Of a DNA stretch of 41,810 bases, positions 1-40,137 are shown piece after piece. The translations under genes were made by a program, and so were the position numbers. The notes below the pieces were generated by a model. The model had not been told where the DNA came from and did no database searches. It worked only from the letters and a program-made list of their open reading frames with translations. Source of the DNA: a bacterium (GTDB lineage Bacteria; Patescibacteriota; Microgenomatia; UBA1406; GWC2-37-13); NCBI GenBank assembly GCA_030647255.1, contig JAUSJK010000083.1, forward strand, positions 1 to 41,810. The letters are read 5' to 3'. The number at the start of each line of letters is the position of its first letter. Positions within the stretch are counted from its first letter, which is position 1.

Positions 1-1489
1 AGTATACCCAAGTAGAAACAGTTAGCCGATTTGTACTTGGAGCAAGACTTGCGCCTGAACCAGCATCTACATAATCATTTGTATCAGAAGAATTAAAACT
101 CCCTCCATTACCGAATTTACCGTTGGCAGTGGTGGCGCCGCTGTAGCCGATACCATTATTTCCATTTCCAGATGAGTCAAGTACCTCTCCAGCTGTCCCA
201 CTCCAGATTGATTCATCCATCTTCCAGTACCCGACGAGTCCGTCAGATAGTGCCGCTGAACTTTTGGGATTTGATCCTAGAGATGCAGACACTCCTTTGA
301 CAGAAGAGCTTCTGGCTAATCCCGCTGCGTAGTCTGCTTTTATCTGTGCCGCTGTCCGTGAGTAGTTATAGATTTTAAATTCATCAAGATAGCCATTTAG
401 ATCATATGCTCCTGCAGGAGCATATCTGTCTCCAATCCACACTGCTGTAGGTGCGCCTCCAGAGTAGTCTTCGGAGGCGCCTGAGTTTTCCAACAGTCCA
501 TCGGTATAGATGTACCATTGAGTGCCACTTCTTATAAACTGGACAAAGTGCCATTTGTTATCAGCAATATTTTTAGAGCCAGAGATAGCTCCTCCAGAAG
601 GCAGATATTCGTCTGCCCCAATTAATCCGTTCGCTAATCTAAAATAGTGGTTGGTATCTCCTGCCGCATCGTACTGTCCAAAAATACTTCCTACACCACT
701 TGTTTGTGATGTTCTAATCCAAGTTTGGACTGTGAAACTGGTTGAGCCTGATCCCAGTAGTGCAGTATTACCTATGTTTATCTCATCACTTGTGCCATCA
801 AAATATAAGCATTTTCCACTTATACACATATCTTCACTTTTCCACGTAGGTGCAGAACTTCCTGTACCGAGGCTGCCTCTATTATTCTGTCCGGAAGAAT
901 CGTAGACAGTTGAACCTACACCTTCATCAAACTTCCAGTAGGCGACAGGGCCAACAGTTTTTTCTTCTGAACCCGTAGATCCTAACGTGTAGTTTGAAGC
1001 TTGGGTGGCAAAGTCTGAAGAGTTAAATCCGTTGGGAGCATTCGCATTGCCATAGTAATAATAGATTGTCTGTTTCCCGGCGGGGAAACTGTTCAGAAAC
1101 ACATGAAGTATGGTTGAAGAGGTACCACAGCCTGAGGATATATAGTAGGGAAGTTTCTCTCCATTAAACTTCGTAAATCGTAGATCTCCGCAGTCTGCTT
1201 GAAAACGGGTGGTATCTGAGGTATCCGCAGTCACTCCGATATAGATATTTGCCTCTGCCGACGTGTTGTTTGTGACGTCTATTGATTTTCTATACGCAAA
1301 TGTATCATCGTACCAGGCCGCCTCTACACTTTTATTCGAATACTTGACGACCAAAAATACAATGGGAATGAGAATAACAAGGATGAGTGTTCCCATCATC
1401 AAGATGGGTCTTTTGACAAAAGAAGAGTACGTTGAGACGAGTATATGCTCAATCATATCTATATATGTATTCCACAGTTTGATAAGCAT
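1..1489 (-). CDS. LamG-domain / DUF2341 surface protein, C-terminus cut off by window edge
   Basis: Minus-strand reading frame open from an ATG at 1489 to the left edge, so the C-terminus is missing. The N-terminus has a short cytoplasmic segment and one hydrophobic helix (about residues 28-48), which suggests membrane anchoring. A DUF2341-like region follows (YRKSIDVTNNTSAEANIYIG, then a Tyr-rich YYYYGN stretch). After it come two concanavalin A/LamG-like repeats, each opening with a VAYWKFDEG or VGYWKMDES motif and a DSSGxxN turn. In this fold such repeats usually bind glycans or act as adhesive modules. An in-frame stop lies just upstream of the ATG at 1508-1510. No clear ribosome-binding site is visible. 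It sits downstream of two surface-protein genes on the same strand. Family calls are by motif recognition only. Confidence 0.8.
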   Translation of the reverse strand, partial: MLIKLWNTYIDMIEHILVSTYSSFVKRPILMMGTLILVILIPIVFLVVKYSNKSVEAAWYDDTFAYRKSIDVTNNTSAEANIYIGVTADTSDTTRFQADCGDLRFTKFNGEKLPYYISSGCGTSSTILHVFLNSFPAGKQTIYYYYGNANAPNGFNSSDFATQASNYTLGSTGSEEKTVGPVAYWKFDEGVGSTVYDSSGQNNRGSLGTGSSAPTWKSEDMCISGKCLYFDGTSDEINIGNTALLGSGSTSFTVQTWIRTSQTSGVGSIFGQYDAAGDTNHYFRLANGLIGADEYLPSGGAISGSKNIADNKWHFVQFIRSGTQWYIYTDGLLENSGASEDYSGGAPTAVWIGDRYAPAGAYDLNGYLDEFKIYNYSRTAAQIKADYAAGLARSSSVKGVSASLGSNPKSSAALSDGLVGYWKMDESIWSGTAGEVLDSSGNGNNGIGYSGATTANGKFGNGGSFNSSDTNDYVDAGSGASLAPSTNRLTVSTWVY

Positions 1490-1639: not shown

Positions 1640-2638
1640 TTATTCGTGTCTCTTCTTCAGTTCTTCTTTGAGTTTTTCGATCTCAGCTTGTTCTTCATGG
1701 AGTTCTTGCTCCAGTTTCACTTCTTTCTTGATGAATTGAGTATAGATTTTTGTCAGCAAGATGATAAGTAATGAGAGAGATAAGAGAGCGACGATAGCCA
1801 CTCTCCAGGGAAACACCCACACATATGCACTTTGTTGTAAGGGTGCATTCTTGCTTCCATAGGCGGCGGCGAGCTCCATCTTGTATCTTCCCACCATCCA
1901 TGTGTGTCCGAGCGTCACATCATATGTCCGTGCCCGTTCAGGAAAGATTTTGATCTCTGCCAACGTTTTCTGATCGACAAAATCTCCGAACGTATTCGAC
2001 AAAATGACAGATCCCAAGGGAGCGATATGAATATCTCCGTTATTGGCGACATCGAAAGAGGTCGTGATCGGGCCATACTCCATAAACTTGGGTGTTTCAA
2101 AACGGACGATGGAAAGATCTTCCTTACACTCTTTTCCTTCGGTGATAAAGTTTATCAGTCCTCCTATTTTTCGAGTCACTGAAGTGGCTGATTGATTTTG
2201 TCCAAGTCTCTTTATTTTTCCTTCGTCAGGCTGGAAGTAGACGACGGCATAATATCCACAGCTCGTCAGATCTTTGGGAGGATTGATCGTCATGGTGACA
2301 AGACCAAACTCATGTGCGGGAACTGCCAGTTCATTTTGGTCAAGCGTGATCCAGGAAGAGGCGGAGTATTTGGGTTTGAGAGGCACATCCTCGACCAGTT
2401 CTGTTGTTCCTTTTTTATCTGTCACGGTAAAATCAGCCACTTTGACCACTCCTATCTCAAGCGACTGACCCGAATTGCGGAATTGAATCTGCGCTCTTGT
2501 TTTCTCTCCAGGGGTCACTTGAATCTCCTGGACGGCCGGAACGACGGTGATGGTGGCAAAATCAAGTTCTTGTGCACGCGCATGCGTGACAAAGGCAAGG
2601 AAAAAAATAACAATACTTATCTGTACAATCTTTTTCAT
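1640..2638 (-). CDS. Membrane-anchored Ig-like surface protein (DUF916/WxL-partner-like)
   Basis: Start taken at the ATG at 2638, because this puts a normal signal peptide (MKKIVQISIVIFFLAFVTHARA) at the N-terminus; an ATG 12 nt further upstream would overlap the preceding stop. The mature part begins with an ITVVPAVQEIQVTPGEKTRA strand pattern. That pattern resembles the Ig-like domain of DUF916 (WxL-interacting) proteins, where the family role is binding cell-wall or surface partners. Near the C-terminus are one transmembrane helix (VAIVALLSLSLLIILL) and a charged coiled coil (KLEQELHEEQAEIEKLKEELKK) that would be cytoplasmic. The start lies 1 nt beyond the stop of the 500-residue secreted protein, so the two are almost certainly co-transcribed and may form one surface complex. 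The family call is tentative. Confidence 0.75.
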   Translation of the reverse strand: MKKIVQISIVIFFLAFVTHARAQELDFATITVVPAVQEIQVTPGEKTRAQIQFRNSGQSLEIGVVKVADFTVTDKKGTTELVEDVPLKPKYSASSWITLDQNELAVPAHEFGLVTMTINPPKDLTSCGYYAVVYFQPDEGKIKRLGQNQSATSVTRKIGGLINFITEGKECKEDLSIVRFETPKFMEYGPITTSFDVANNGDIHIAPLGSVILSNTFGDFVDQKTLAEIKIFPERARTYDVTLGHTWMVGRYKMELAAAYGSKNAPLQQSAYVWVFPWRVAIVALLSLSLLIILLTKIYTQFIKKEVKLEQELHEEQAEIEKLKEELKKRHE

Positions 2639-2639
2639 A

Positions 2640-4142
2640 TTAGTTTCCAAATGTCGCGGTGGCGACGTACGTGAGTTTGTTTAAATAAAATCCGGCATTT
2701 TGCTGATTTGAGATGGTGATTCGGTAGCAGACATCGGCGGCGTTTCCGTTCACAGGACCGCTGTTGCTCATAATCTGTCTTGCGGTTACAGAATCAAAAG
2801 CTCTGGCGGAAAAGGCTCTACTCGATTCTCCCCACGTAAAGGCTGCATCTGTTCCAGAAGTGTTGGCCATTGAATATCCAAGACTTGACTCGTTGCTGAG
2901 TGTCCAGTCTATTCGGGTGGCAAGCGTATTGCACGGAGTCCCTGCATTTCCACAATATTCTCCTATGGTCGTCGTTCCCAGTCCGTCAAGAGACATAGGT
3001 CCGTTTTCTATTACGGTGACAGAGTAGCCGCTTTTGGCGTTTGTACTCAAGGTAAGTGTGTGTGCCATATCATAAAAAAGGTTTGTCGATATCGATCCAA
3101 AAGGTACCGTCGTTGCCGTAGAGGTGACACTAGCCGCTCTATTACAATGTGTTGTCCCGACATTTGTTGATCCTATGGTAAAGCTAAGCGTGGTGTCGAC
3201 AGTGGCTGAGACGAGCACTCCTTCAATGGGAGCAATTTTAATATCGGCCGAGTCCATGACTATGCCCCCTGTCGGATTGAGTACTCTGATAGTTGCCGTG
3301 TATACATCTGACACTCCTCTCGTGTGACTTGATTTGATAGGGGCAGGGTTCACGATGACTGTCGAACCCAAGCCGATCGTCATGGTGACGGTGGATCCGG
3401 CAGCGAGAGTTCCCGTAAACGGACAATTGATCTGATGGTTGGCTGTACCGTTGACTGTGTTACGGGTGATGGTATTTCCCGAGGTCACCCATGTGGCAGC
3501 GCCTCCCGAGCACGTCACTGCTCCTGCGTATTGATCGAGTCTTCCGAGATCAAATCCTGATGTTGAAATGGAAGTGCCCACATCGGGAATAGAGTCGCTC
3601 GCAGATGTAGATCCGGCAGCCAAGCTTGGTCCGGGGAGAAGGAACTGTACCGTCGCCCCCGTCGCCAGATTGTATGCTTGAGGAGCGATAAATGTCACCG
3701 TATGTACGGCTGACTGGGTCGACACGACATAGTCAGTTGTTCCGACAGCCGTGGTAAGTGTTGAAGTAAGCAAAAAATTAGTACTCGACTGAGACGGAAC
3801 GGAACCGACAGTATAATTAGTATATCCATAACAGCCTTCATAGCCAAACCCGACAAAACAGACGGTATCGCGGGGAAATAAATTGAGTAAGTCTTGATCC
3901 GAGTATCTGTCAGCGTTGGGAGCACCGCTGTCTATCACTATTGACGTAGTACCGCTCGTCGCGGCCGATCCGAGCTTCCCTCTAAAAGACAGACGTGAAT
4001 TTGAGAGAAGATCTTTTGCCTGTATGAGTGTTCCGGCGTGTACCTGGTTTTCTTTTCCAAAAGGAAGGATAAATACAAATACAGACACGGCAAGAACTGC
4101 GGCAAGCACTTTAGCCAACGAAACGAATTTTAACTTATACAT
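2640..4142 (-). CDS. Large secreted surface protein
   Basis: 500 residues with a clear signal peptide (MYKLKF..., hydrophobic core around residues 9-28, cleavage probably after VHA). The rest is rich in Ser, Thr, Gly, Ala and Val with alternating beta-strand patterns, typical of exported beta-sandwich proteins. Early in the mature part is DLLSNSRLSFRGK, possibly a conserved family motif. No C-terminal transmembrane anchor or sortase signal is visible, so retention at the surface may depend on the anchored protein encoded immediately downstream. Several Cys residues are present (VCFVGFGYEGC; EYCGNAGTPCN). The promoter faces that of the PaaX-like gene. Substrate and exact function are not recognisable. 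Confidence 0.75.
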   Translation of the reverse strand: MYKLKFVSLAKVLAAVLAVSVFVFILPFGKENQVHAGTLIQAKDLLSNSRLSFRGKLGSAATSGTTSIVIDSGAPNADRYSDQDLLNLFPRDTVCFVGFGYEGCYGYTNYTVGSVPSQSSTNFLLTSTLTTAVGTTDYVVSTQSAVHTVTFIAPQAYNLATGATVQFLLPGPSLAAGSTSASDSIPDVGTSISTSGFDLGRLDQYAGAVTCSGGAATWVTSGNTITRNTVNGTANHQINCPFTGTLAAGSTVTMTIGLGSTVIVNPAPIKSSHTRGVSDVYTATIRVLNPTGGIVMDSADIKIAPIEGVLVSATVDTTLSFTIGSTNVGTTHCNRAASVTSTATTVPFGSISTNLFYDMAHTLTLSTNAKSGYSVTVIENGPMSLDGLGTTTIGEYCGNAGTPCNTLATRIDWTLSNESSLGYSMANTSGTDAAFTWGESSRAFSARAFDSVTARQIMSNSGPVNGNAADVCYRITISNQQNAGFYLNKLTYVATATFGN

Positions 4143-4160
4143 ATGACATAAAGAATAAAT

Positions 4161-4178
4161 AGAGAATAGCTATTCTCT
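4161..4178. promoter_or_regulatory. 18-bp perfect palindrome in leader of surface operon
   Basis: AGAGAATAG followed by its exact reverse complement. It lies between the predicted minus-strand start point (near 4187) and the ATG at 4142. It could be an operator, plausibly for the divergent PaaX-like regulator, or an mRNA hairpin. Confidence 0.45.
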
Positions 4179-4193
4179 TAGGTAATTACTATC

Positions 4194-4222
4194 ATTTAAT
4201 TCTATTATTTATAACTTGTCAA
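4194..4222 (-). promoter_or_regulatory. Predicted promoter of the surface-protein operon
   Basis: On the minus strand, TTGACA (4222-4217), a 17-nt spacer, then TTAAAT (4199-4194). The -35 lies in a 10-bp sequence TTGACAAGTT that is the exact inverted copy of the one used by the opposite promoter at 4277-4286. Confidence 0.5.
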
Positions 4223-4276
4223 GTGATACATAAACGTTGTGCAATTTATACATGATTATTGACGCAAATTGATCTA

Positions 4277-4305
4277 TTGACAAGTTTTTTACCGTCTGTT
4301 ACAGT
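4277..4305 (+). promoter_or_regulatory. Promoter of the PaaX-like regulator
   Basis: TTGACA (4277-4282), a 17-nt spacer, and TACAGT (4300-4305). The predicted start point, near 4312, is almost at the ATG (4315), so the transcript would be leaderless or nearly so. Confidence 0.65.
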
Positions 4306-4314
4306 GTAGCTTGT

Positions 4315-5070
4315 ATGGGAATAAAAGATAGGCGGACGAAAATATTACTTGCACTTATACTTCTTTCAGACGTTGATTTAAAAGCAGTAAATGTAGACGA
4401 ACGTGTACAAAAAGTATTCGATATTTCTTTCAATCAGAAGACTCGCGGGACTCTTTCGGGTATGGCAAAAGAGGGATTAATCGAGAAACAAAATGAAGGT
4501 CAGGTTAGAGAACAAGGGAGTGCGTATAAATTAACTGAAAAAGGATTTACAAGCTTATCTCTTCAGTTTCCTTTCTTTCGCTATTTAAGAGAGAAATGGG
4601 ACGGGAAGTGGAGAATTATTTCCTATGAAATACCCGAATCAAAGAGAGAATTGCGTGATAAACTCAGGCGGGAGATGCAAGGATGGGGGCTTGGCCCCTG
4701 GCATCGTTCCTTCTGGTTGACTCCTCATCCGATCATAGAAACATTACGGCAACTTGTGTCTCAAAAGGAAGAAGAGAAATATATTCAGGCATTTGAGGCA
4801 GACCATACGTTCGGAGAAAGAGAAGTCCTCATCGAAAAGGTCTGGGGAAAATCAAACCTGGATAAAAAATACAGGGAATTATTTAAAAGTTGGCACGATC
4901 TTCTGTCGAAAGAAGGAGATAAGGTAGATAAATTTAAAACAGTCGCCTCTTCATACGTGGAAATGTTGAAAATTGATCCCGGACTGCCTTCGGAACTGGT
5001 AGGGGAGAAGTGGATCGCTTTCGAAGCATTCAATATATTCAAAGAAATTAGGAGCATACTACTTACCTGA
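4315..5070 (+). CDS. PaaX-family-like transcriptional regulator
   Basis: 251 residues. The first 80 form a winged-helix-like region ending in a KLTEKGFTSLSL wing. The centre has WDGKWRIISYEIPESKRELR followed by LRREMQGWGLGPWHRSFWLTP, the hallmark of the Cas2-like ferredoxin domain found in PaaX regulators. PaaX proteins are repressors, classically of phenylacetate genes, but nothing here points to that pathway. The gene diverges from the surface-protein operon with mirror-image promoters, so control of that operon is a reasonable inference. The next gene is convergent, separated by a repeat element. Confidence 0.75.
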   Translation: MGIKDRRTKILLALILLSDVDLKAVNVDERVQKVFDISFNQKTRGTLSGMAKEGLIEKQNEGQVREQGSAYKLTEKGFTSLSLQFPFFRYLREKWDGKWRIISYEIPESKRELRDKLRREMQGWGLGPWHRSFWLTPHPIIETLRQLVSQKEEEKYIQAFEADHTFGEREVLIEKVWGKSNLDKKYRELFKSWHDLLSKEGDKVDKFKTVASSYVEMLKIDPGLPSELVGEKWIAFEAFNIFKEIRSILLT

Positions 5071-5101
5071 AACCTAGAACGTAGAACGTGTAACATGTAA
5101 C
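5071..5101. repeat. Heptamer-period array
   Basis: Degenerate 7-bp units (ACCTAGA, ACGTAGA, ACGTGTA, ACATGTA) immediately downstream of the PaaX-like stop and next to a two-hairpin element. Confidence 0.65.
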
Positions 5102-5116
5102 AATTTTTATTATCTC

Positions 5117-5243
5117 CGTCATCCTGGTAAGTCCTTCGACTTCGCCCAGGACGCATCCAGGATCGTAGTTAATTCATTGACAACGATTCTGGAGTCGTCG
5201 CAATTTACAGTGAGCTTGCCGAACTGCTCCTCCCCAGAATGAC
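5117..5243. repeat. Two-hairpin intergenic repeat, copy 1
   Basis: Begins CGTCATCCTGG and ends CCAGAATGAC. It contains ATCCTGG/CCAGGAT and ATTCTGG/CCAGAAT arms around the conserved centre CGTAGTTAATTCATTGACAA. It lies between convergent genes and is in the ATCCTGG-first orientation. Confidence 0.85.
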
Positions 5244-5253
5244 TATGCGCTTT

Positions 5254-6168
5254 TCAATACTCTGGCTCTCTTGTTAATTTCCCGTTTTCAATATAGAAAA
5301 CTACATCACCTATTTCATCCGTACGTAATATATTTGTCTTTATGGCTTTTAGCATATCTAAAACTTCCTGATGAGGGTGTCCATACGAATTGTTTTTGCC
5401 TACGCTTATCACTGACCAGGTAGGTTCTGCTAAAGATAGAAATGTGGAGTTTAGTCCATTTTTCGAGCCATGATGAGGTACTTTTAAAATATCATACCTA
5501 TGATTAGCCTTTTGAGATAATGCAAATAATGTTTCAGGTGTTGTATCGCCTGTGAAAAGAACATCGATTTTCCCTTCCTGGTAAGCAAAAATGAGAGAAA
5601 ACGCATTCAGATCAGAAGTCGCCGTATAAAAATTATTCCTTTCCTTTCGTGGTGATGAAAATAGAGAGTTCTCTGCTATAAATTGTCTAGTTGGCCAGTG
5701 TATCTCTATGTGAGATGAGCCAAGTGTATAGGTGGCTCCCGCATACGGGTTAACAATATGGAGAGAAGAGTTTTTAGTCAGTTTACTTTTGAGTTCCTGA
5801 AATGACTTAGAGTCATTACTTATAGGATTAAGCATAAATGTTGTGATCGTATATCTGTCAAGCATGGGAATGAATCCATAGAAATGGTCTTTCTGAGGAT
5901 GAGAGAGGAAGGCCATCTCTATCGTTCTGTCATAAAAAGGCATATATTTTCCCAAACATTCGAGTATTTTCGTATTCGGACCGGCGTCGATCACAATGTC
6001 ATACCTATTCTGAACTCTGATATAGGCGCCATCTCCCTGACCGACATCGCAGAATACAATTTTTGTCCTCGTGTCGAAAATGGATTGTATAAAAAGTCCC
6101 GTTACAATTCCTACGGCAAGGAAGATGCTTACAAAAAATAAACCTTTGGATACGGGACTATGGTTCAT
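5254..6168 (-). CDS. ComEC-type metallo-beta-lactamase domain protein
   Basis: 304 residues with one N-terminal transmembrane helix (residues 9-28). The MBL fold follows: FCDVGQGDGAYI, LSHPQKDHFYG (metal-binding H...DH), FTGDTTPE, VPHHGSKNG and NSYGHPHQEV. These match the C-terminal domain of ComEC/Rec2, which is thought to process or degrade the non-transported DNA strand during uptake. In most bacteria this domain is fused to the channel; here it is a separate gene starting 2 nt after the channel gene stops, so ComEC is encoded in two pieces. It is the last gene of the comEA-comEC operon. The ligand pattern looks intact apart from a Lys before the DH pair. Confidence 0.85.
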   Translation of the reverse strand: MNHSPVSKGLFFVSIFLAVGIVTGLFIQSIFDTRTKIVFCDVGQGDGAYIRVQNRYDIVIDAGPNTKILECLGKYMPFYDRTIEMAFLSHPQKDHFYGFIPMLDRYTITTFMLNPISNDSKSFQELKSKLTKNSSLHIVNPYAGATYTLGSSHIEIHWPTRQFIAENSLFSSPRKERNNFYTATSDLNAFSLIFAYQEGKIDVLFTGDTTPETLFALSQKANHRYDILKVPHHGSKNGLNSTFLSLAEPTWSVISVGKNNSYGHPHQEVLDMLKAIKTNILRTDEIGDVVFYIENGKLTREPEY

Positions 6169-6170
6169 AT

Positions 6171-7028
6171 TTAGAATTTAATACTGGCGTAAGGAATACG
6201 GGATAAGAGTTCGATGACCCACATCATATATGTCAGAAGCCCGTAGGCAATAGTGGCAGGAATGATACCTAAGATAAAATGAACTTTGCCTAATAAGGCC
6301 GCCAGAAAGCCTAAAATCATGAGAGGCGCAATGAGAAATGAGACAAGAATATTCGATACGGGAGAGATGAGAGATACCTGTCTAAAGTAAAAAAATATGA
6401 GAGGTACCGTAAGTACCTGGGCAGAGAGAGATGTGCGAAATTCATCCTTAATGTAGGTATATATTCTCTGTTTCGTATTTTCTTTACTCGGTGGAGGTGC
6501 TTTTTTTGAAAAAAGAATTAAGCCAAGGGTGGAAAGGTAAGAAAGTTGAAAAGACAAGCTAAATAACCATTTCGGCCAGATTAAAAAAGTTACAAATCCG
6601 GCTAAAAATAAAGCCCATAAGGGATACGCTTTCCTTCCATATATCAAAGCTACGGACGTAAGTATGCTCATGATACCTGCTCTTATGATTGGGGCCTGAG
6701 GACTGACAAATAATATAAACAAAATAATGACTAGTATATTTATCACTAGTGACATATATCTGCCAAATTGTATGGTTAATCGACTTAAAATGGCCGAAAG
6801 GAGCGTGATATTCATGCCTGAAAGAACAACAAGGTGTATAAGACCGACAGCTTTAAGATCGGCATACAGTGCCAACGATTTTTTTAAGGGTAATCCAAAC
6901 AATATCCCATTGAGAAGGGACGACTGTGGTTCGGGAAGATACCCATTGAGAACAGAGGAAAAAGTAAAAGGTGTTATCTCAAAGTGAAATGGCATTCTGT
7001 ATTTTGGAGAATACGCTTTTGCTAACAA
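6171..7028 (-). CDS. comEC: ComEC/Rec2 competence (channel) domain protein
   Basis: 285 residues, mostly transmembrane helices. The signature LKAVGLIHLVVLSGMNITLL near residue 70 is the hallmark of the ComEC competence domain, which forms the channel for single-stranded DNA across the inner membrane. The usual N-terminal DUF4131 region is absent and the MBL domain is a separate downstream gene. The ATG at 7028 overlaps the end of comEA by 50 bp. An internal ATG at 6995 (MPFHFEI) would reduce the overlap and is a credible alternative start. The translated membrane domain shows no frameshift. Confidence 0.85.
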   Translation of the reverse strand: MLAKAYSPKYRMPFHFEITPFTFSSVLNGYLPEPQSSLLNGILFGLPLKKSLALYADLKAVGLIHLVVLSGMNITLLSAILSRLTIQFGRYMSLVINILVIILFILFVSPQAPIIRAGIMSILTSVALIYGRKAYPLWALFLAGFVTFLIWPKWLFSLSFQLSYLSTLGLILFSKKAPPPSKENTKQRIYTYIKDEFRTSLSAQVLTVPLIFFYFRQVSLISPVSNILVSFLIAPLMILGFLAALLGKVHFILGIIPATIAYGLLTYMMWVIELLSRIPYASIKF

Positions 7029-7626
7029 TTTTTTTATCCAGGAGTTCCTGTATATTTTGATACGGCCGGCCGTTGATTATTTTGTCTGCTGTTACTTTGC
7101 CCACTCCCGAGAGTATATCGAGTTCCTGAGAGGATGAAGAGTTGATAGAGATCTTTTTTGAAGATTGTGGTAGAGCCATATTCCCCATAGATATTTCCGT
7201 ACTTGATGGTATGTCCGACAATGTCTGTTCTTGAATATCCGGCGAAATATCCCGATTTGAGGGGATGTATATTTTTTCCTGATCGATAAGAACTTTGGCT
7301 AAGTTAAAGTTGCGGGCGAAGTATTGGGCGTCGGCCTCTTTGGCAAGTCCTCCTGCAAGTATAAGCAACTCTTTTAATCGGGTGCCTGAGGATATTTCGT
7401 ATACGTCCGGATGAGCTACATATCCCGCAAGATCTACATATATGGTGCTATTATTTTCTTCTTGTTCTGTGTCTTGCGTCGGTGTCACGGCCTCTGTCTG
7501 CTGAGGAGACGATCGAGAATAGATCGTGAGTGAGATGATAATACAGATGACAGAGGCACCTATGAAGCAGATCTCAATGAGATATTTCTTTAGTAAAGGC
7601 CTGAATGAACTAAGATATTCATCCAT
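6979..7626 (-). CDS. comEA: ComEA-like DNA-binding competence protein
   Basis: 215 residues. One transmembrane helix (about 16-36) anchors it. A SLBB-type region (IYVDLAGYVAHPDVYEISSG ... LKELLILAGGL) lies at about residues 60-125. The C-terminus is a helix-hairpin-helix domain (INSSSSQELDILSGVGKVTA) at about 155-215, which binds double-stranded DNA in ComEA. The protein would capture DNA outside the membrane and pass it to the ComEC channel. It is the first gene of the operon, with two ComEC-piece genes after it. Domain order and length fit classical ComEA. Confidence 0.88.
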   Translation of the reverse strand: MDEYLSSFRPLLKKYLIEICFIGASVICIIISLTIYSRSSPQQTEAVTPTQDTEQEENNSTIYVDLAGYVAHPDVYEISSGTRLKELLILAGGLAKEADAQYFARNFNLAKVLIDQEKIYIPSNRDISPDIQEQTLSDIPSSTEISMGNMALPQSSKKISINSSSSQELDILSGVGKVTADKIINGRPYQNIQELLDKKIVSKSVFSKIQNAISL

Positions 7627-7687
7627 GACCTCATAATAGAAAAACTATGGCCGAAGTCAATGGATTATAAGCGACAAAATCATTCTT

Positions 7688-7815
7688 CGTCATTCTGGGG
7701 AACGAAGTGACTCCAGAATCGTAGTTACTACATTGACAACGATCCTGGCGCCGCCCAGAGGGCTCTGCCCGGCGGGATGCGTCCTGAGCAACACCGAAGG
7801 ACTTACCAGGATGAC
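7688..7815. repeat. Two-hairpin intergenic repeat, copy 2
   Basis: Begins CGTCATTCTGG and ends CCAGGATGAC, with the conserved centre ATCGTAGTTACTACATTGAC. The second arm is extended by a GC-rich insert (CGCCGCCCAGAGGGCTCTGC region). It lies between comEA and the next minus-strand gene. Confidence 0.85.
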
Positions 7816-7832
7816 TCAATAAGGAAGAAATG

Positions 7833-7864
7833 CGTTCTAGGTTCCAGGTTCTACGTTCTAGGTT
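7833..7864. repeat. Heptamer-period array
   Basis: Units GTTCTAG, GTTCCAG, GTTCTAC, GTTCTAG. It runs right up to and slightly into the 3' end of the next minus-strand gene. Confidence 0.65.
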
Positions 7865-8871
7865 TCACTCTCAGTCGATCTTACTTTCCTGAATATCAAG
7901 TACAGAATGAGAAACATGATAGCGAGTCCTATAGTCAGCTTAACTGGAAAGACGAGAAAGGATGTTGAGGCGTTGAGAATCCCAGTATTTTCGCCAAAAT
8001 TTATAGTTGTAGACAGTTTATAATTCCCAAGGAAAAAACCGGCGAGAGTTAGAGTATTGGAGGCTTTACAGAGCCTCATATTTTTATCATCCTGACAGTC
8101 AATCATTGCCGATGGAGTAGCCAAAATTGTCCGTTGTGAATGTGCGAGAATATTTTGAGGAATGAGATCGTACGTGGCGATTTCTCCAAAACTTCCCTTC
8201 ATTATTATATTCCCATAAGGTTTGATTAAATTGTTGCCGGTATTTTCTAGGGTCAAGATTATTGGGATTTTGTCACCGACGTCAAAAATAGTAAGATTAT
8301 TAAATATTTTTGGCAACGTAAAATGAGGAATTACATTAAACTTGCTAATTCTTCCTTTGACCTCTATATTGCCATCACTTGTTACCGTAATGAGTATGTT
8401 GCTTCCGATCGCAACCTTCGATCGGGGAGACGTATTTCCGTCAAGACTTGGCGGCGCTTGTGTTTCTGAAATAAACGTATAGTAATAATCACCGGCAGGG
8501 GCACCTTCGGGCACCCTCATTCTTAAAAGAAGTTGCTGAGATGTCTTAGTTCTCAAGAAAAAAGGCTTATCCAGCTGTATGTCATTATTGTCGAGTGAAA
8601 ATCTTATAGGTCCTTCAAATTCTTCTTTTATTTTGATATTTCCATTCGAGTCTTTTGGTTCAAATGGGAGTACTTTTGTAGTAATAACCGTCGGGTCTCC
8701 AAAGTTATGAAGTGTGTAGGCGATGAGAACGACTTTTCCAGGTTTGATGGCCATCTCGATGAGAGGAGGAGAGATGGAAAGATCCGCCAATTGAGCAAAG
8801 GACGAGGGAATAAACCTTCCAATGAAAACGAGAAGGAGTAGTAGGCTGATAATGATCTTACTTTTATTCAT
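7858..8871 (-). CDS. Membrane-anchored Ig-like surface protein, second copy
   Basis: 337 residues from the ATG at 8871; the ATG 21 nt upstream would add MLHVQCY, encoded by a heptamer array, and is unlikely. A signal peptide (MNKSKIIISLLLLLVFIGRF ... SSFA) is followed by LADLSISPPLIEMAIKPGKV, the same opening strand pattern as the protein at 1640-2638. A C-terminal transmembrane helix (LTIGLAIMFLILYLIF) and a short basic tail follow. It appears to be a divergent paralogue, and again the gene just upstream encodes a secreted beta-rich protein. Inferred role: anchoring or assembling that secreted partner. No enzyme motif is seen. Confidence 0.75.
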   Translation of the reverse strand: MNKSKIIISLLLLLVFIGRFIPSSFAQLADLSISPPLIEMAIKPGKVVLIAYTLHNFGDPTVITTKVLPFEPKDSNGNIKIKEEFEGPIRFSLDNNDIQLDKPFFLRTKTSQQLLLRMRVPEGAPAGDYYYTFISETQAPPSLDGNTSPRSKVAIGSNILITVTSDGNIEVKGRISKFNVIPHFTLPKIFNNLTIFDVGDKIPIILTLENTGNNLIKPYGNIIMKGSFGEIATYDLIPQNILAHSQRTILATPSAMIDCQDDKNMRLCKASNTLTLAGFFLGNYKLSTTINFGENTGILNASTSFLVFPVKLTIGLAIMFLILYLIFRKVRSTESET

Positions 8872-8892
8872 ATAGCATTGAACATGTAACAC
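8872..8892. repeat. Short heptamer-period array before a start codon
   Basis: Minus-strand units GTTACAT, GTTCAAT, GCTATAT end at the ATG of the anchored surface protein. Confidence 0.5.
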
Positions 8893-8902
8893 TTTTTTTC
8901 TC

Positions 8903-8985
8903 CGTCATCCTGGCTTGTCCAGGATCGTAGTTAATTTATTTCACTACGATTCTGGAGTCGTCGTTTCACTCCTCCCCAGAATGAC
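8903..8985. repeat. Two-hairpin intergenic repeat, copy 3 (short form)
   Basis: Begins CGTCATCCTGG and ends CCAGAATGACG. The arm loops are minimal (ATCCTGGCTTGTCCAGGAT), which makes it the shortest complete copy at about 83 bp and the best view of the core structure. Confidence 0.85.
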
Positions 8986-9005
8986 GATGTGTTTTCTAAC
9001 TTTTT

Positions 9006-9050
9006 ATACCAAATACTAAATACAAAATACTAAATACTGATGACTAATAA
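9006..9050. repeat. Heptamer-period array
   Basis: Units AATACTA, AATACAA, AATACTA, AATACTG at the 3' end of the next minus-strand gene; the array overlaps that gene's last codons. Confidence 0.65.
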
Positions 9051-9784
9051 CTCGGTGTGGCAACAAAATTGATAATTGTCTGATAGCTGCCGCCGGGTTG
9101 AACAGAAGAGATATTTGCTTTAAATGTCATCGTTGCCGTTCTGCCTGTCCCCACATTCGAGTTGCTCATAATGAGGGCCGGCGATTCGGCCGCCGATCTA
9201 TCCGGAAACCGTCGGTAATAATCCGTACTGCTGAATGTTGCCGGTATATCCAAGCCATACATGTTGTATCCAAATCCATAAGCCGAGTTGGATATCCATT
9301 GTCCGGCGGTAGTTTCATCACAGCTCGTATCACAACTGGTATCGGGTATCTGGGAACCTGTTTGTGTTTGAAGAGGCGTTTCTTCTATTCCGGTGACCTG
9401 GTATGCACCCGCGCCTCCAAATGTAACGGTAAGATTGGTTGTCGCTGTTGACGGACTATTAGGACTAAGTGCGCCTAAGTTTATATTTGTACTTGAGAGA
9501 GAAAACCGAAAAGGGATAATAGAGTGAATATACTGAAATCCGGCTTTAATAATGTATCCGGTCGAGTCGAATTGGCCAAATGCAGTTTGACCTATGGTTG
9601 TGTCTAAATTATAACTTGTCGATGTCTGACTTTTTGCTCCTAAATTGACGTTGCCAAATTCTATGCGATACTGCGTAGATTCGAGATTGTCAGCGTGTGC
9701 AATATGAGGATTTACCCATATAAGGAGAGCGAAGATAATGAGAGCGAAGGTCGATCTATAGATACAACATGAAACGTGTGACAT
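9044..9784 (-). CDS. Secreted beta-rich surface protein
   Basis: 246 residues. The N-terminus MSHVSCCIYRSTFALIIFALLIWVNPHIAHA acts as a signal peptide; its first residues are encoded by heptamer units (GTCACAC, GTTTCAT, GTTGTAT). No later Met gives a signal sequence, so this start is kept. The mature part has DNLESTQYRIEFGNVNLGAK, then STSYNLDTTIGQTAFGQF, a strand-rich pattern seen in exported proteins of this group. A second beta domain follows (FRFSLSSTNINLGALSPNSP ... LTVTFGGAGAYQVTGIEE) with a Cys pair (DTSCDTSCDE). It lies upstream of the anchored Ig-like gene, the same arrangement as at 1640-4142. Function unknown. Confidence 0.7.
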   Translation of the reverse strand: MSHVSCCIYRSTFALIIFALLIWVNPHIAHADNLESTQYRIEFGNVNLGAKSQTSTSYNLDTTIGQTAFGQFDSTGYIIKAGFQYIHSIIPFRFSLSSTNINLGALSPNSPSTATTNLTVTFGGAGAYQVTGIEETPLQTQTGSQIPDTSCDTSCDETTAGQWISNSAYGFGYNMYGLDIPATFSSTDYYRRFPDRSAAESPALIMSNSNVGTGRTATMTFKANISSVQPGGSYQTIINFVATPSY

Positions 9785-9797
9785 TATTTATTATCTC

Positions 9798-9911
9798 CGT
9801 CATCCTGGTAAGTCCTTCTACTTTGCTCAGGACGCATCCAGGATCGTTGTGAATGAATTAACTACGATTCTGGAGTCTCCCGACGTCAAACCTCGGGATC
9901 CCCAGAATGAC
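9798..9911. repeat. Two-hairpin intergenic repeat, copy 4
   Basis: Begins CGTCATCCTGG and ends CCAGAATGAC. The ATTCTGG arm carries a nested CTCCCGACG/CCTCGGGATC stem that is shared in variant form with the copies at 37464 and 39009. Confidence 0.85.
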
Positions 9912-9928
9912 AATATTCTTTTTAACTT

Positions 9929-10609
9929 CTAACTACCTTCTTCCGTCTTTCCTTCAGGGTTTTTTTCAAACTGGTCTATCATTCGCTCAAGTCTATTGGC
10001 ATGTTTTTTGATTTCTGCCAGTTCTTCGTCACCCATAAAATTTTCTGCAGCGTCTTTGATAGATTTGACATGATTTTTAATAACCAAAGCCATAAAAAGT
10101 AACGTGTTTTGATCTTGTTGCGTTACTTTTGTAGAAAGTTTTTGAATATGCGACCCCGATTGACGTATTTGTATATATTCTTGCCCCATAAAAAGAGCTA
10201 AAGGTGATATGAAGGCGATAGAAATGACCGGGATGAGAGACTCAAATGAGGCGGTTTCGGGAAGAGTAAGCAGAAACATTACAATATAACCCACCGTGAG
10301 AGTAAGAGAAATAAACGGTTCCAAAAGAAGGCTTGCTGCGAAAAGGAGAAAATAAAGCAGAAAGAAAAAATGAGATTCCGTACCTCCTGTGACGATGACG
10401 ACACTTGTCACGACAAATGTAAAGATGACAGACTCTAACAGTTTCGACTGGATACCTCGGGGAATGATAATTTTTTTGCTGACGTACAAAATAAGAAAAA
10501 GTGCCGCCGCTACCTGCAGATCATATTCTTTTAGAGGAGATTTAGAAAAAAAAAGGGAGAGAAATATAACACATATAAGAATTATGGAGTGGATGAGTTC
10601 CTTGGGCAT
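9929..10609 (-). CDS. Polytopic membrane protein resembling a sensor-kinase input module
   Basis: 226 residues. About six transmembrane helices span residues 5-145; the stretch VIVTGGTESHFFFLLYFLLF resembles membrane sensor domains of histidine kinases and GGDEF proteins. The C-terminal 65 residues form two amphipathic helices (NTLLFMALVIKNHVKSIKDA; ELAEIKKHANRLERMIDQFE) that look like a degenerate kinase dimerisation hairpin with His180. There is no ATP-binding domain, so it cannot be a complete kinase. It may be a signalling remnant or a scaffold. The gene diverges from secE. The call rests on topology and is only a suggestion. Confidence 0.6.
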   Translation of the reverse strand: MPKELIHSIILICVIFLSLFFSKSPLKEYDLQVAAALFLILYVSKKIIIPRGIQSKLLESVIFTFVVTSVVIVTGGTESHFFFLLYFLLFAASLLLEPFISLTLTVGYIVMFLLTLPETASFESLIPVISIAFISPLALFMGQEYIQIRQSGSHIQKLSTKVTQQDQNTLLFMALVIKNHVKSIKDAAENFMGDEELAEIKKHANRLERMIDQFEKNPEGKTEEGS

Positions 10610-10621
10610 AATATATTTGAG

Positions 10622-10660
10622 TATATAGTATTTCGTATTTAGTATCTAGTATTTAGTATG
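10622..10660. repeat. Heptamer-period array
   Basis: Units such as AGTATTT, AGTATCT, AGTATTT, AGTATGA on the left flank of repeat copy 5, in the divergent region upstream of secE. Confidence 0.65.
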
Positions 10661-10672
10661 AAAAAAATGCTT

Positions 10673-10788
10673 CGTCATTCTGGGGAGGAATAGTTCGACG
10701 AGCTCACTATGACGACTCCAGAATCGTAGTTACTTTGTTGACAACGATCCTGGATGCGTCTCGCTTTGCTCGACTTACCAGGATGACG
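10673..10788. repeat. Two-hairpin intergenic repeat, copy 5
   Basis: Begins CGTCATTCTGG and ends CCAGGATGACG. The first loop contains AGTTCGACGAGCTCACTATG. Heptamer arrays flank it on both sides. Confidence 0.85.
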
Positions 10789-10811
10789 TAATAAAGAGAA
10801 ATATGTGTTTT

Positions 10812-12956: not shown

Positions 12957-13074
12957 AGTCATTCTGGGGAGGAATAGTTCGACAAGCTCACTATGACGAC
13001 TCCAGAATCGTAGTTAATTAATTCACAACAATCCTGAGCAAGACCCAAAGGGTCCCCTTTGGGGCCAGGATGAC
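12957..13074. repeat. Two-hairpin intergenic repeat, copy 6
   Basis: Begins GTCATTCTGG and ends CCAGGATGAC. It lies 17 bp past the rplA stop between convergent genes. The second loop carries an AAGGGTCCCCTTTGGGGCC stem. It may act as the transcript end for the ribosomal operon, though no T-run is present. Confidence 0.85.
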
Positions 13075-13787: not shown

Positions 13788-13824
13788 GGGAAGATAAGTT
13801 AGGCGTCAGGAGTTAAAAACACAT

Positions 13825-13930
13825 CGTCATTCTGGGGCGGAGAGAAGCGACGACTCCAGAATAGTAGTTAATTATTTCACAACGATACTGGATACGTCCT
13901 GAGCAACGCCGAAGGACTTACCAGGATGAC
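13825..13930. repeat. Two-hairpin intergenic repeat, copy 7
   Basis: Begins CGTCATTCTGG and ends CCAGGATGAC. It shares the left flank AGGAGTTAAAAA-(G)CACAT with the copy at 39009, so the repeated unit is longer than the hairpins. Confidence 0.85.
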
Positions 13931-13941
13931 AAAGATAAAAA

Positions 13942-13982
13942 AATGTTACATGTTACCTTGTTACATGTTCAATGTTACATGT
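13942..13982. repeat. Heptamer-period array upstream of the HEPN-like gene
   Basis: Units GTTACAT, GTTACCT, GTTACAT, GTTCAAT, GTTACAT, ending two bases before the TATAAT box. Confidence 0.65.
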
Positions 13983-13995: not shown

Positions 13996-14481
13996 ATGAA
14001 AACTCCCGATTCTTATGGCGATTTTTGGAACTATCTTTCCCAAAATCAAAAAGATCTCATTCTTGAGGGTAACTACCTGATGAATGACGTCATCAGGCAC
14101 CACAACTATACGTTCAAAGACTACTCTTTTCTGGTATTTCCCTACGCAAAAGCTTACGAGGGTTTTCTCAAACAACTTTTTAAAGATGTCAAATTTTTCT
14201 CCCATCTTGACTATATTTCAGATCATTTGCGGCTAGGTAAACTTTTATCTCCCAATCTTATTCTTAAGCTTGGAGACAGATCTCTCTATGTTCAAATAGA
14301 AAAGACAGCGGGAAAAGAAGTAGCGGAGAAAATTTGGCAGACGTGGAAAATGGGTAGAAATGAGATATTTCATTACTTTCCGCACAATCTAAAATCGATT
14401 ACGTTTGAAGAAGCGGAGACAATAGTCGATGAGATTGTGGAGACAATGGAAGAAGCATTTCAAAAACTTAAGAAGAACTAG
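13996..14481 (+). CDS. HEPN-like protein (RnlA-toxin-like fold suggested)
   Basis: 161 residues from the ATG at 13996, chosen because it lies 6 nt after a perfect TATAAT; the upstream ATG translates heptamer repeat. It is all-helical in appearance, with AYEGFLKQLFKDV in the centre and MGRNEIFHYFPHN near residues 119-131. The R121-N122-x3-H126 pattern matches the R-x4-6-H motif of HEPN ribonucleases. HEPN proteins are often RNA-cutting toxins or defence effectors. No antitoxin gene adjoins it: the next gene is a P-type ATPase after a repeat element. It could be a stand-alone housekeeping HEPN protein instead. Confidence 0.6.
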   Translation: MKTPDSYGDFWNYLSQNQKDLILEGNYLMNDVIRHHNYTFKDYSFLVFPYAKAYEGFLKQLFKDVKFFSHLDYISDHLRLGKLLSPNLILKLGDRSLYVQIEKTAGKEVAEKIWQTWKMGRNEIFHYFPHNLKSITFEEAETIVDEIVETMEEAFQKLKKN

Positions 14482-14486
14482 GAATC

Positions 14487-14611
14487 CGTCATTCTGGTAA
14501 GTCCTGAGCGAAGTCGAAGGACGCATCCAGAATCCGTATTTAATTCACAACGATTCTGGAGTCACTTCGCCAGGTGCAAGACTGTACCTGGCTTCGTTCC
14601 CCAGAATGACG
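14487..14611. repeat. Two-hairpin intergenic repeat, copy 8
   Basis: Begins CGTCATTCTGG and ends CCAGAATGACG. Both arms are of the ATTCTGG type. It includes the core CCTGAGCGAAGTCGAAGGA, the closest intergenic match to the segment found inside leuS. Confidence 0.85.
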
Positions 14612-27157: not shown

Positions 27158-27210
27158 GAAGAAGCTCAGTATAACGGGTTAAGAAAATGGTAGGGCTAGG
27201 GTGATAAACT

Positions 27211-27285
27211 TCATCATCGTAGTTAATTCATTCACAACGATCCTGGATGCACCCTTCGACTTCGCTCAGGATTTACCAGGATGAC
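27211..27285. repeat. Two-hairpin intergenic repeat, copy 9 (partial)
   Basis: Only the conserved centre ATCGTAGTTAATTCATTCAC and the ATCCTGG/CCAGGATGAC arm remain; the ATTCTGG arm is missing. Confidence 0.75.
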
Positions 27286-27300
27286 AAAAACCTAAAAGAG

Positions 27301-35487: not shown

Positions 35488-35814
35488 GTATATGAAAATG
35501 GATACATTCTCTCTAGACTGTCCTGATAATCTACGCCACCCCCGAGGTGTACATGACTCCATTACGCCATTATAATGGAATGAATATAGAGATCTCTATA
35601 TTAGGCTATTTTTTCTCATATAGATTTTCTCAATGCATACATACTTATGTAAAAAATGCTTCGATTATTCGAATAATCGAAGCATCAAAGAAAGGCTTTT
35701 TTTTAGTTCATAATCTGTATGAAGAATGGTATAATAATCAGATTCGAGAATGTGTTATCGCTTCTGAGTACTAGTGGGCCTGCCCGCTCAGTTCTGAACG
35801 AAGTGATGAACAGC
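35488..35814. other. Palindrome-rich intergenic region without a convincing gene
   Basis: About 330 bp between rnhB and the tRNA region. It contains three perfect palindromes: CCATTATAATGG (near 35567), AATATAGAGA plus its complement (35583-35602) and the 30-bp one at 35656-35685, the last followed by a T-run. The one open frame overlapping it (35547-35774) has no recognisable features. Confidence 0.5.
35656..35685. terminator. 30-bp perfect palindrome followed by T-run
   Basis: ATGCTTCGATTATTC followed directly by its reverse complement, then after 11 nt GGC and a run of T at 35697-35704. It could be a terminator for rnhB or a protein-binding palindrome. Confidence 0.4.
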
Positions 35815-35940
35815 GGGTCCGTAGCTCAATGGTACCCGCCCGCCTCGCAAGCGAGCGTCAAAGCTTGACGAGAGCGTTGCGGGCAGGCCTGCCCGCCATG
35901 CTAGTCGCAAGGCGTTGCAGGCGGGGAGCAGCAGGTATGG
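35774..35940. repeat. GC-rich hairpin cluster around a tRNA fragment
   Basis: Strikingly GC-rich against AT-rich surroundings. It includes CTCGC-AA-GCGAG, CGTCAA-AGC-TTGACG and the 18-bp perfect palindrome GCGGGCAGGCCTGCCCGC (35879-35896). It resembles a mobile palindromic repeat cluster. Confidence 0.7.
35815..35834 (+). pseudogene. 5' fragment of tRNA-Lys
   Basis: GGGTCCGTAGCTCAATGGTA is identical to the first 20 nt of the complete tRNA-Lys 170 bp downstream. The match stops there and GC-rich hairpin DNA follows. It cannot fold as a tRNA. Confidence 0.75.
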
Positions 35941-35984
35941 TTTTATACGCACGTTCATAGATAATCTTAAAAAAATAGAACATA

Positions 35985-36056
35985 GGGTCCGTAGCTCAAT
36001 GGTAGAGCAGCAGCCTTTTAAGCTGTTGGTTGAGAGTTCGAGTCTCTCCGGACTCA
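35985..36056 (+). tRNA. tRNA-Lys(TTT)
   Basis: The acceptor stem GGGTCCG pairs with CGGACTC (one G-T). The D arm has GCTC-AATGGTA-GAGC, the anticodon loop is CTTTTAA with anticodon TTT, and the T arm has GAGTTCGAGTCTC. Discriminator A; the 3' CCA is not encoded. It lies 5 nt before a membrane glycosyltransferase gene, so the two may share a transcript. Confidence 0.93.
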
Positions 36057-37463: not shown

Positions 37464-37598
37464 GGTCATCCTGGCCTGCCTGCCGGCAGGCAGGTAAGTC
37501 CTTCGGCGTTGCTCAGGACGCATCCAGGATCGTAGTTAATTCGTTGACAACGATTCTGGAGTCTCCCGAGGACAAACCTCGGGATCCCCAGAATGACG
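37464..37598. repeat. Two-hairpin intergenic repeat, copy 10
   Basis: Begins GGTCATCCTGG and ends CCAGAATGACG. The first arm carries a nested 20-bp perfect palindrome (CCTGCCTGCC plus complement, 37475-37494), and the second a CTCCCGAGG/CCTCGGGA stem. Confidence 0.85.
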
Positions 37599-37653
37599 AT
37601 GTTAGTGATGAAGAGTTTTTTTATTTTCGGACGCTATTTTTTCCAAATTTTGA

Positions 37654-38964: not shown

Positions 38965-39008
38965 AGTCGAAAGTTTATAAAGAAAAAGTTAGGAGTTAAA
39001 AAGCACAT

Positions 39009-39126
39009 CGTCATTCTGGAGTCTCCCGAGGTTTGACGTCGGGAGACTCCAGAATCGTAGTTAATTATATTTAACAACGATCCTGGATGCGTCCTGAGCA
39101 AAGCCGAAGGACTTACCAGGATGACG
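39009..39126. repeat. Two-hairpin intergenic repeat, copy 11
   Basis: Begins CGTCATTCTGG and ends CCAGGATGACG. The first arm holds CTCCCGAGG...CGGGAG and the second GTCCTGAGC/GCCGAAGGAC. The flank AGGAGTTAAAAAGCACAT is shared with copy 7. Confidence 0.85.
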
Positions 39127-39140
39127 AAATAAGAAAGAAA

Positions 39141-39172
39141 TGTGTTCTAGGTTCTACGTTCTAGGTTTTATC
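39141..39172. repeat. Heptamer-period array upstream of the prepilin peptidase gene
   Basis: Units GTTCTAG, GTTCTAC, GTTCTAG, GTTTTAT, ending about 16 nt before the -10 box. Confidence 0.65.
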
Positions 39173-39199: not shown

Positions 39200-40024
39200 A
39201 TGTTCCTCATTTTTTTGTTCATCTTAGGACTTGTCATTGGTTCTTTCTTGAATGTACTAATTGATCGTTTACCCAATGAAGAGTCGATCAACGGTCGTTC
39301 TCACTGCGATTACTGTAAAAAAACACTTTCAGCAGGAGATTTAATTCCGGTCGTGTCGTATGTGTGGCTCAAAGGGAAGTGTCGGTATTGCAAAAAGAAG
39401 CTTTCGATTCAATATCCGCTTATTGAGATATTCACTGGAATAGTCTTTATTTTAATATGGCATTTTGTAGGGTCTTCTGTCATTCTGGGGAATGTAGTGA
39501 CTCCAGAATCTAGACTCTGGACAAGTCAGAGTGACATTCTAAAAATCTGCTACTTAGGTATTATCTCCACCCTCATTGTCATATTTTTTGCTGACGTAAA
39601 ATATCATATTATCCCTGACTCAATGCAGATTGCTTTCTTTGTCTTTTCTCTTTTATTTATATTTGTAGGGAACGGTTTGAAACCGTTCCCTACGCTTACC
39701 GACCATCTTATCTCTGGACTTATAACCTTAGCTCCAATCCTTTTCATATTTCTTATAACACGGGGGAGAGGAATGGGCTTTGGGGATGTAAAACTGGCAT
39801 TTATTATCGGATTTTTTCTTGGACTCTGGCCTGGACTTATGGCTCTTTATATCGCATTCATACTTGGGGCGGTTTGGGGTGTGGCCATGATACTTTTTAA
39901 AAGACGCGGTCTGAAAAGCAAGATTGCTTTTGGACCATTCTTAGTACTGGGAATTGTGTGTATGCTTGTGTGGGGAGATGGTATCATGTCGTTGGCCAAG
40001 AATTATTATCCATTTCTTAACTAG
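39200..40024 (+). CDS. pilD: Type IV prepilin peptidase with two palindrome-derived inserts
   Basis: 274 residues from the ATG at 39200 (6 nt after TATACT); the upstream alternative from 39140 translates heptamer repeat. N-terminal GLVIGSFLNVLIDRLP and two Cys pairs (36/39 and 61/64) mark the methyltransferase domain. Catalytic aspartates are in FADVKYHIIPD (132) and GFGDVKLAF (about 196). It cleaves and N-methylates type IV pilins, and fits with the com genes as part of the DNA-uptake machinery. Residues about 94-112 (VILGNVVTPESRLWTSQSD) are a degenerate two-hairpin element in frame. Residues about 156-165 (VGNGLKPFPT) come from a 29-bp palindrome. Both inserts lie between membrane helices, so the enzyme may still work. 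Confidence 0.93.
   Translation: MFLIFLFILGLVIGSFLNVLIDRLPNEESINGRSHCDYCKKTLSAGDLIPVVSYVWLKGKCRYCKKKLSIQYPLIEIFTGIVFILIWHFVGSSVILGNVVTPESRLWTSQSDILKICYLGIISTLIVIFFADVKYHIIPDSMQIAFFVFSLLFIFVGNGLKPFPTLTDHLISGLITLAPILFIFLITRGRGMGFGDVKLAFIIGFFLGLWPGLMALYIAFILGAVWGVAMILFKRRGLKSKIAFGPFLVLGIVCMLVWGDGIMSLAKNYYPFLN
39478..39535. repeat. Degenerate two-hairpin element inside the prepilin peptidase gene
   Basis: GTCATTCTGG...CCAGAATC plus CTCTGGACAAGTCAGAGTGAC, matching the short-form copy 3 (ATCCTGGCTTGTCCAGGAT) on the opposite strand. The central spacer is lost. Confidence 0.8.
39665..39693. repeat. 29-bp palindrome inside the prepilin peptidase gene
   Basis: A 14-bp inverted repeat GTAGGGAACGGTTT with one central base. 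It is in frame and encodes VGNGLKPFPT. Confidence 0.85.
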
Positions 40025-40033
40025 AATATTTTC

Positions 40034-40137
40034 CGTCATTCTGGGGAATCTCGCAAAGCGAGATGACTCCAGAATCGTTGTCAATTAAATACGGATTCTG
40101 GATGCGCTTCATAAATCATCGCTTACCAGAATGACGA
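40034..40137. repeat. Two-hairpin intergenic repeat, copy 12
   Basis: Begins CGTCATTCTGG and ends CCAGAATGACG. The first loop holds ATCTCGC-AAA-GCGAGAT. Both arms are of the ATTCTGG type, as in copy 8. Confidence 0.85.

Follow-up and report, generated by a model that had tools for sequence, protein, structure and literature searches.

What do two secreted proteins, each encoded ahead of a membrane-anchored partner, do at the surface of a patescibacterial cell? The question is raised by a stretch of DNA that comprises an entire contig (41,810 bases; hereafter the window) of a Roizmanbacteria-like (Microgenomates) metagenome-assembled genome of ~1.2 Mb, 93.6% complete. Four genes of the window, here called T, P, Q and R, lie on the minus strand as two cassettes, T-P and Q-R (Table 1). 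A first-pass annotation had described two parallel cassettes of a secreted protein and an anchored partner, and had suggested a surface-display system of this lineage that recalls the WxL proteins and DUF916 partners of Firmicutes. All four open reading frames (ORFs) were recovered where it had placed them, with the secreted gene first and the anchored gene second in both cassettes, and a surface-display role fits the data presented below. The Q stop and the R start are 1 nt apart, and the 172 nt between T and P are occupied by a palindromic repeat. We lean, with moderate confidence, towards a reading in which each cassette encodes a secreted subunit of pilin type together with a membrane-anchored WxLIP-like chaperone or anchor dedicated to it, the whole making up an usher-less pilus or surface-display system.

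The anchored partners belong to one family. P and R are full-length homologues by hhalign (probability 99.85, E 1e-30), and in this alignment SPPLIEM pairs with VPAVQEI, the opening strand that the first-pass annotation had noted. The C-terminal membrane helix ascribed to both is present as a hydrophobic helix in every homologue of P (33/33) and R (27/27). An AlphaFold2 (AF2) model of P, with a predicted local distance difference test score (pLDDT) of 90.4, shows two beta-sandwich immunoglobulin (Ig)-like domains followed by the C-terminal helix. The best matches of this model in the PDB are two Enterococcus faecium WxLIP entries, 9i25/9i1y, one with a VIA-align Z of 13.1 and the other with 12.8 (E 4e-9 and 3e-8 by Foldseek), the top superposition aligning 226 residues at a root-mean-square deviation (rmsd) of 7.3 across both domains. 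These are followed by RbmA (Z 12) and then by pilus chaperones of the CsuC, Caf1M, FimC and CfaA type (Z 10-11). Profile searches for DUF916, now PF06030 (WxLIP_PGBD; Pfam gathering score 27.3 bits), gave a divided result: the model is matched by 17 of the 27 R homologues (best E 2.9e-7), one of which, from the same family, passes the cut-off with 31.0 bits, whereas R of the window stays under it at 16.6 bits and P and its homologues gave no match in Pfam scans. The same scans of P, R and their homologues gave no match to DUF3324 (HBD). An R profile retrieved EfmWxLIP1 from the PDB at a weak E of 0.048 and the corresponding search with P gave nothing credible; PDB profile searches detected no sequence homology of P, R, T or Q to chaperones or pilins. 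NCBIfam scans offered no credible name for the partners and Pfam mostly names none. We see the data as supporting a distant relationship of the anchored partners to WxLIP/DUF916 proteins.

For the secreted proteins, NCBIfam holds models of a pilus named 'Pam' from the Candidate Phyla Radiation (CPR): NF058579 (PamT), NF058581 (pilin C domain) and NF058578 (PamR). NF058580, tried as a possible further model, is a lipase. T aligns with PamT nearly end to end (residues 15-246; 58.7 bits, E 6e-16, against a whole-protein cut-off of 240 bits), and each of the two proteins matches the pilin C domain under its cut-off of 55 bits, T with 24.7 and Q with 32.6 bits; the match in Q covers the last 155 residues. 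Judged by these profile scores, T and Q are relatives of the Pam proteins and not members by the curated NCBIfam rule. The pilin C model is also matched by 15 of the 26 Q homologues, and T and Q have a common C-terminal domain (hhalign 99.4, E 2e-21). PamR was not matched among the scanned cassette proteins of the window, a search that did not extend to the rest of the genome.

AF2 models T with a pLDDT of ~95 for residues 91-246, and most of the best 50 PDB matches of this model are chaperone-usher pilins (FimG, CsuA/B, CsuE, CfaE, FimA, PapA), with Z of 6-7.5 and rmsd of ~3; the WxL chain of 9i25 is not among these 50, an absence that carries no weight either way. The last strand of the T model aligns to the C-terminal end of FimG/CsuA-B, at a Z of only 6-7.5. 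The fold matches also include p53, glycosidase domains and, weakly, the TasA fibre (8aur, probability 0.96), and sequence-profile searches of the PDB with T and Q gave no credible match. The reading of T as pilin-like is made more credible by the NCBIfam pilin annotation, which is independent of the fold comparison. Homologues of both proteins terminate with the pilin domain, and none carries a C-terminal hydrophobic helix (0/34 for T, 0/26 for Q). With a short N-terminal arm ahead of its pilin domain, T has the look of a subunit of the shaft or base, and Q, with its additional N-terminal domain, that of a larger subunit or one of tip type. Sortase-assembled pili were considered and rejected, as the 34 T and 26 Q homologues have no C-terminal hydrophobic segment that could be a sorting signal or transmembrane (TM) helix. 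The WxL domain (PF13731) was found neither in Q homologues nor in the whole genome, with a positive Lactococcus control, which rules out T and Q as WxL proteins. The first-pass likeness to WxL and DUF916 proteins thus holds for the partners, by PF06030 matches in R homologues and by WxLIP as top fold match, and fails for the secreted proteins.

The pairing is not peculiar to the window. The P gene is present in 60 of 72 family-level genomes, where the recurrent order is H-T-P-ComEA-ComEC-hydrolase-X-Q-R (H and X are described below). A scan of contigs with the single P sequence gave no match; scanning with close T homologues gave 64 named loci, which overlap with the family-level loci and were selected by T, so that they are not an independent count. 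Named relatives of T found in this way come from Candidatus Roizmanbacteria, Woesebacteria, Collierbacteria, Shapirobacteria and other Microgenomates. A partner follows directly after T in 53 of the 60 loci with room for it and directly after Q in 31 of 32, bearing out the co-occurrence that the first-pass annotation proposed to look for in related genomes. The two pairs form a T-P-Q-R tandem in 12 loci, and in 24 a com block lies between them. Across a sample of 287 genomes spread over the phylum, the R profile matches 111 and the pilin C model 73, with both in 68 (Fisher p 6e-30, a value that does not count independent events because the genomes share ancestry). At least 72 of the 149 listed partner matches start no more than 300 bp downstream of a pilin C match on the same strand; among the matches listed, none lies immediately 5' of a pilin C match on the same strand and none adjoins one on the opposite strand. 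At loci at or close to the PamT cut-off, an R-like partner is flanked by the pilins on one side and by a second anchored protein (PamR in locus L094) on the other. We also see the Pam pilin C domain in ORFs of 1000-4500 aa in other patescibacteria, a layout like that of very large adhesins. Cases with ORFs of 3800-4600 aa are G318:C4:29481-29918, G175:C9:77295-77747 and G311:C1:80362-80796, and in at least the second and third of these a partner gene follows immediately.

A tree of 43 partners places the P-type proteins in one group (support 100/100) and the R-type proteins in another (93/83), both spanning several families of the class, while those of other lineages group with the R type. The two types are paralogues of ancient origin. 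Taken with the gene orders, in which P follows T and R follows Q, this separation indicates that each partner stays with its own pilin, the behaviour expected of a specific chaperone or anchor. Homologous partners, in pairs that recur elsewhere, are what the first-pass idea of a common system needed. Both of its cassettes are real pairs, although their description as two parallel units probably needs revision: they probably derive from one ancestral T-P-Q-R unit, split in this family by a block of ComEA, ComEC and PaaX-like genes.

How might such a pair work? T, Q, P and R would be exported by Sec, and the C-terminal helix of the partner would hold its two Ig-like domains at the cell membrane, where they may bind the C-terminal pilin domain of their own subunit. 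By analogy, this domain is probably an incomplete Ig sandwich; a beta strand of the partner would complete it and keep the subunit at the membrane. The subunit could then be passed to the N-terminal strand of the next one, so that polymerisation yields a fibre, or be displayed at the membrane. The outcome would be a surface fibre built or anchored without an outer membrane or usher, possibly serving adhesion to host cells. A precedent is found in AF2 models of WxLIP-WxL pairs, in which a WxLIP strand fills a gap in WxL and completes its sandwich (PMC10599100); the title of PDB entry 9i25 likewise describes WxLIP bound to a long WxL. No usher (PF00577) was found in the 93.6% complete genome, with a positive E. 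coli control, in keeping with a cell that lacks an outer membrane. Usher-less fibres formed by strand complementation have been described for TasA/TapA of Bacillus subtilis and for archaeal threads (PMC10151520; PMC9715654).

The proposed system resembles several known ones and coincides with none. It has in common with the CPR Pam pilus the sub-threshold matches of T and Q, and loci that pass the PamT cut-off also have a P- or R-like partner beside the pilins; it differs in that the window has two pilins, each with its own partner, and that the WxLIP-like partner is not among the NCBIfam models hit. From the WxL-WxLIP pairs of Firmicutes we recognise the architecture of the partner (two Ig-like domains and a C-terminal TM helix), its best fold match, the PF06030 matches of its relatives and the position of its gene beside that of a secreted client, whereas the client in the window is of pilin type, DUF3324 is not matched and the phylum is different. 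Chaperone-usher pili (PapD/FimC/CsuC with Fim/Csu) offer the same two-Ig-domain layout in the chaperone, and pilins (Fim, Csu, Cfa) that the client domain resembles down to a common end point; unlike those chaperones, the partner in the window is larger and membrane-anchored, and the genome has no usher. TasA/TapA and archaeal threads are comparable as usher-less fibres of monoderm bacteria or archaea, and TasA is a weak fold match of T, but TapA is an Ig-fold protein without the two-domain anchored architecture and no sequence link was found. It is possible, though we advance it only tentatively, that CPR bacteria build surface fibres by a donor-strand pathway that needs no usher, with a membrane-anchored chaperone of WxLIP type acting both as a PapD-like chaperone and as the assembly base, and that WxL-WxLIP pairs, CPR pili and chaperone-usher pili are variants of one principle that joins a chaperone to an incomplete sandwich.

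Several observations weigh against our favoured reading. The Pam scores of T and Q fall short of the curated thresholds, the pilin matches of the T model lie in a range of Z (6-7.8) where common folds also score, and Foldseek of that model against the PDB gave no match below E 1e-3. T and P are apart in a few loci (L123, L133, L139, L145). No PapD-type conserved basic pair is seen among the near-invariant residues of the partners, a comparison made at the sequence level and not by structural superposition. Finally, no pilin C domain was detected in 43 of the 111 partner-bearing genomes, which may reflect the sensitivity of the model or partners with other clients. A rival reading is a static arrangement, in which the partner would act as a WxLIP-like surface receptor and keep the secreted proteins at the membrane or cell wall for good, and the pilin-like domain would be a mere anchoring module, with no fibre. 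In its favour, WxLIP has been described as anchoring and stabilising WxL (PMC10599100), the pilin C domain is part of giant ORFs, the longest of 4565 aa, and the provision of one partner per secreted protein looks stoichiometric, not catalytic. We nevertheless think static display rather unlikely, given that T has an arm of ~65 residues before its pilin domain, as a polymerising subunit would, that a single partner follows several consecutive pilins in other CPR lineages (L094, L095, L098), and that the curators of NCBIfam name these proteins a pilus system.

The genes between the cassettes invite another explanation, that T, Q and their partners serve DNA uptake, as a competence pseudopilus or as an accessory to ComEA/ComEC. 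T-P does adjoin ComEA-ComEC-hydrolase in most family-level loci, but the 12 tandem loci have no com genes inside, none were matched near the Pam-type loci of other lineages (L092-L099), and the four proteins are unlike type IV pilins and their assembly machinery; we consider a role in DNA uptake highly improbable. Least probable of all is a true Firmicutes-type WxL/WxLIP surface cluster acquired by the lineage, which the data already largely refute: the WxLIP-like fold of the partner and its partial sequence match would suit such a cluster, but Q homologues and genome contain no WxL domain, DUF3324 is not matched, and the partners fall into deep CPR-wide groups that do not look like a recent import.

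CPR Pam pilins and Firmicutes WxLIP are already known as names. New here is the link between the two: two dedicated WxLIP-like anchors, each with its own pilin, and a partner family that extends across Patescibacteria and is not in annotation libraries. In the literature that was searched we found neither a paper on the Pam pilus nor one linking pilins to WxLIP-like proteins; papers beyond that search may describe the link. The system may bear on the attachment of Patescibacteria, most of them uncultured, to their host cells, and the partner family, although present in 111 of 287 genomes of the phylum and adjoining pilin genes, is named by no NCBIfam model. If the partner is indeed an assembly or anchoring factor of CPR fibres, it would provide a target for gene deletion and a complex for structural work, and would connect WxL-WxLIP, itself poorly understood, with the biogenesis of pili.

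Table 1 Features of the window, with positions counted from its first base.
Feature	Coordinates	Strand	Description
T	9784-9044	-	Secreted pilin-like protein, 246 aa: signal peptide ~1-24; low-confidence N-terminal stretch ~25-90; C-terminal pilin domain ~91-246
P	8871-7858	-	Membrane-anchored partner of T, 337 aa: signal peptide; Ig-like domains ~29-165 and 170-308; C-terminal TM helix 310-336
Q	4142-2640	-	Secreted, 500 aa, in two parts: beta-rich N-terminal region after the signal peptide, then Pam-type pilin domain (aa 343-498) at the C-terminus
R	2638-1640	-	Anchored partner of Q (332 aa), with signal peptide, two Ig-like domains assigned from the homology with P, TM helix and a charged tail that is coiled-coil-like
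H	9929-10609	-	Multi-TM membrane protein with helical tail, 226 aa, directly upstream of T
Competence block	5254-7626	-	Between the cassettes (Pfam/NCBIfam)
ComEA	7626-6979	-	Pfam/NCBIfam
ComEC, N-terminal (membrane) part	7028-6171	-	Pfam/NCBIfam
ComEC, metallo-hydrolase part	6168-5254	-	Pfam/NCBIfam
X	4315-5070	+	PaaX-like regulator or Cas2-like-domain protein (PF20803, E 7e-22); neighbour
DUF2341 + LamG protein	2-1489	-	Secreted protein with DUF2341 and LamG by Pfam; open at contig end, downstream of R
Palindromic repeat copies	5100-5240, 7666-7818, 8893-9002, 9797-9917, 10651-10797, 12958-13036, 13815-13943, 14479-14570, 27204-27294, 37483-37603, 38987-39143, 40012-40106		

The remaining genes of the locus are listed in Table 1. 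H keeps its position in most relatives and also in further families of the class; it gave no family match in Pfam and NCBIfam scans, and is a possible regulator or accessory. With its TGGTESHFFFLL segment and helical tail, H resembles the sensor part of a histidine kinase of PilS type that lacks a catalytic domain. The competence block is probably a neighbour and not part of the pilin-partner system, because it lies outside the tandem T-P-Q-R in sister lineages. ComEC is split here into two genes, for the membrane and metallo-hydrolase parts, and this split recurs in relatives. X is likewise kept at the same place in the family. Downstream of R, most relatives (21) encode S, a conserved, secreted and C-terminally anchored protein of ~310 aa (e.g. 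L034:2718-3725 and L066:750-1685) that matches no known family. S was not found in the genome studied here, and its position in the window is occupied by the DUF2341 and LamG ORF, a possible adhesin of the same unit as R.

The repeat between T and P belongs to a palindromic intergenic family of ~100-150 nt with about a dozen copies in the window, of the form CGTCATTCTGGGGA...ACTCCAGAATCGTAGTTAATT...CAACGATCCTGGA...CCAGGATGAC. Several copies sit between genes of the T-P/Q-R locus, and a similar translated stretch is seen upstream of P in another genome (L063). The repeat looks like a non-autonomous mobile element. Elsewhere in the window, a tRNA-like start, GGGTCCGTAGCTCAATGGTA, is duplicated at 35808 and 35978 (35808-36004); only the second copy is called as tRNA-Lys, and the first may be a tRNA remnant.

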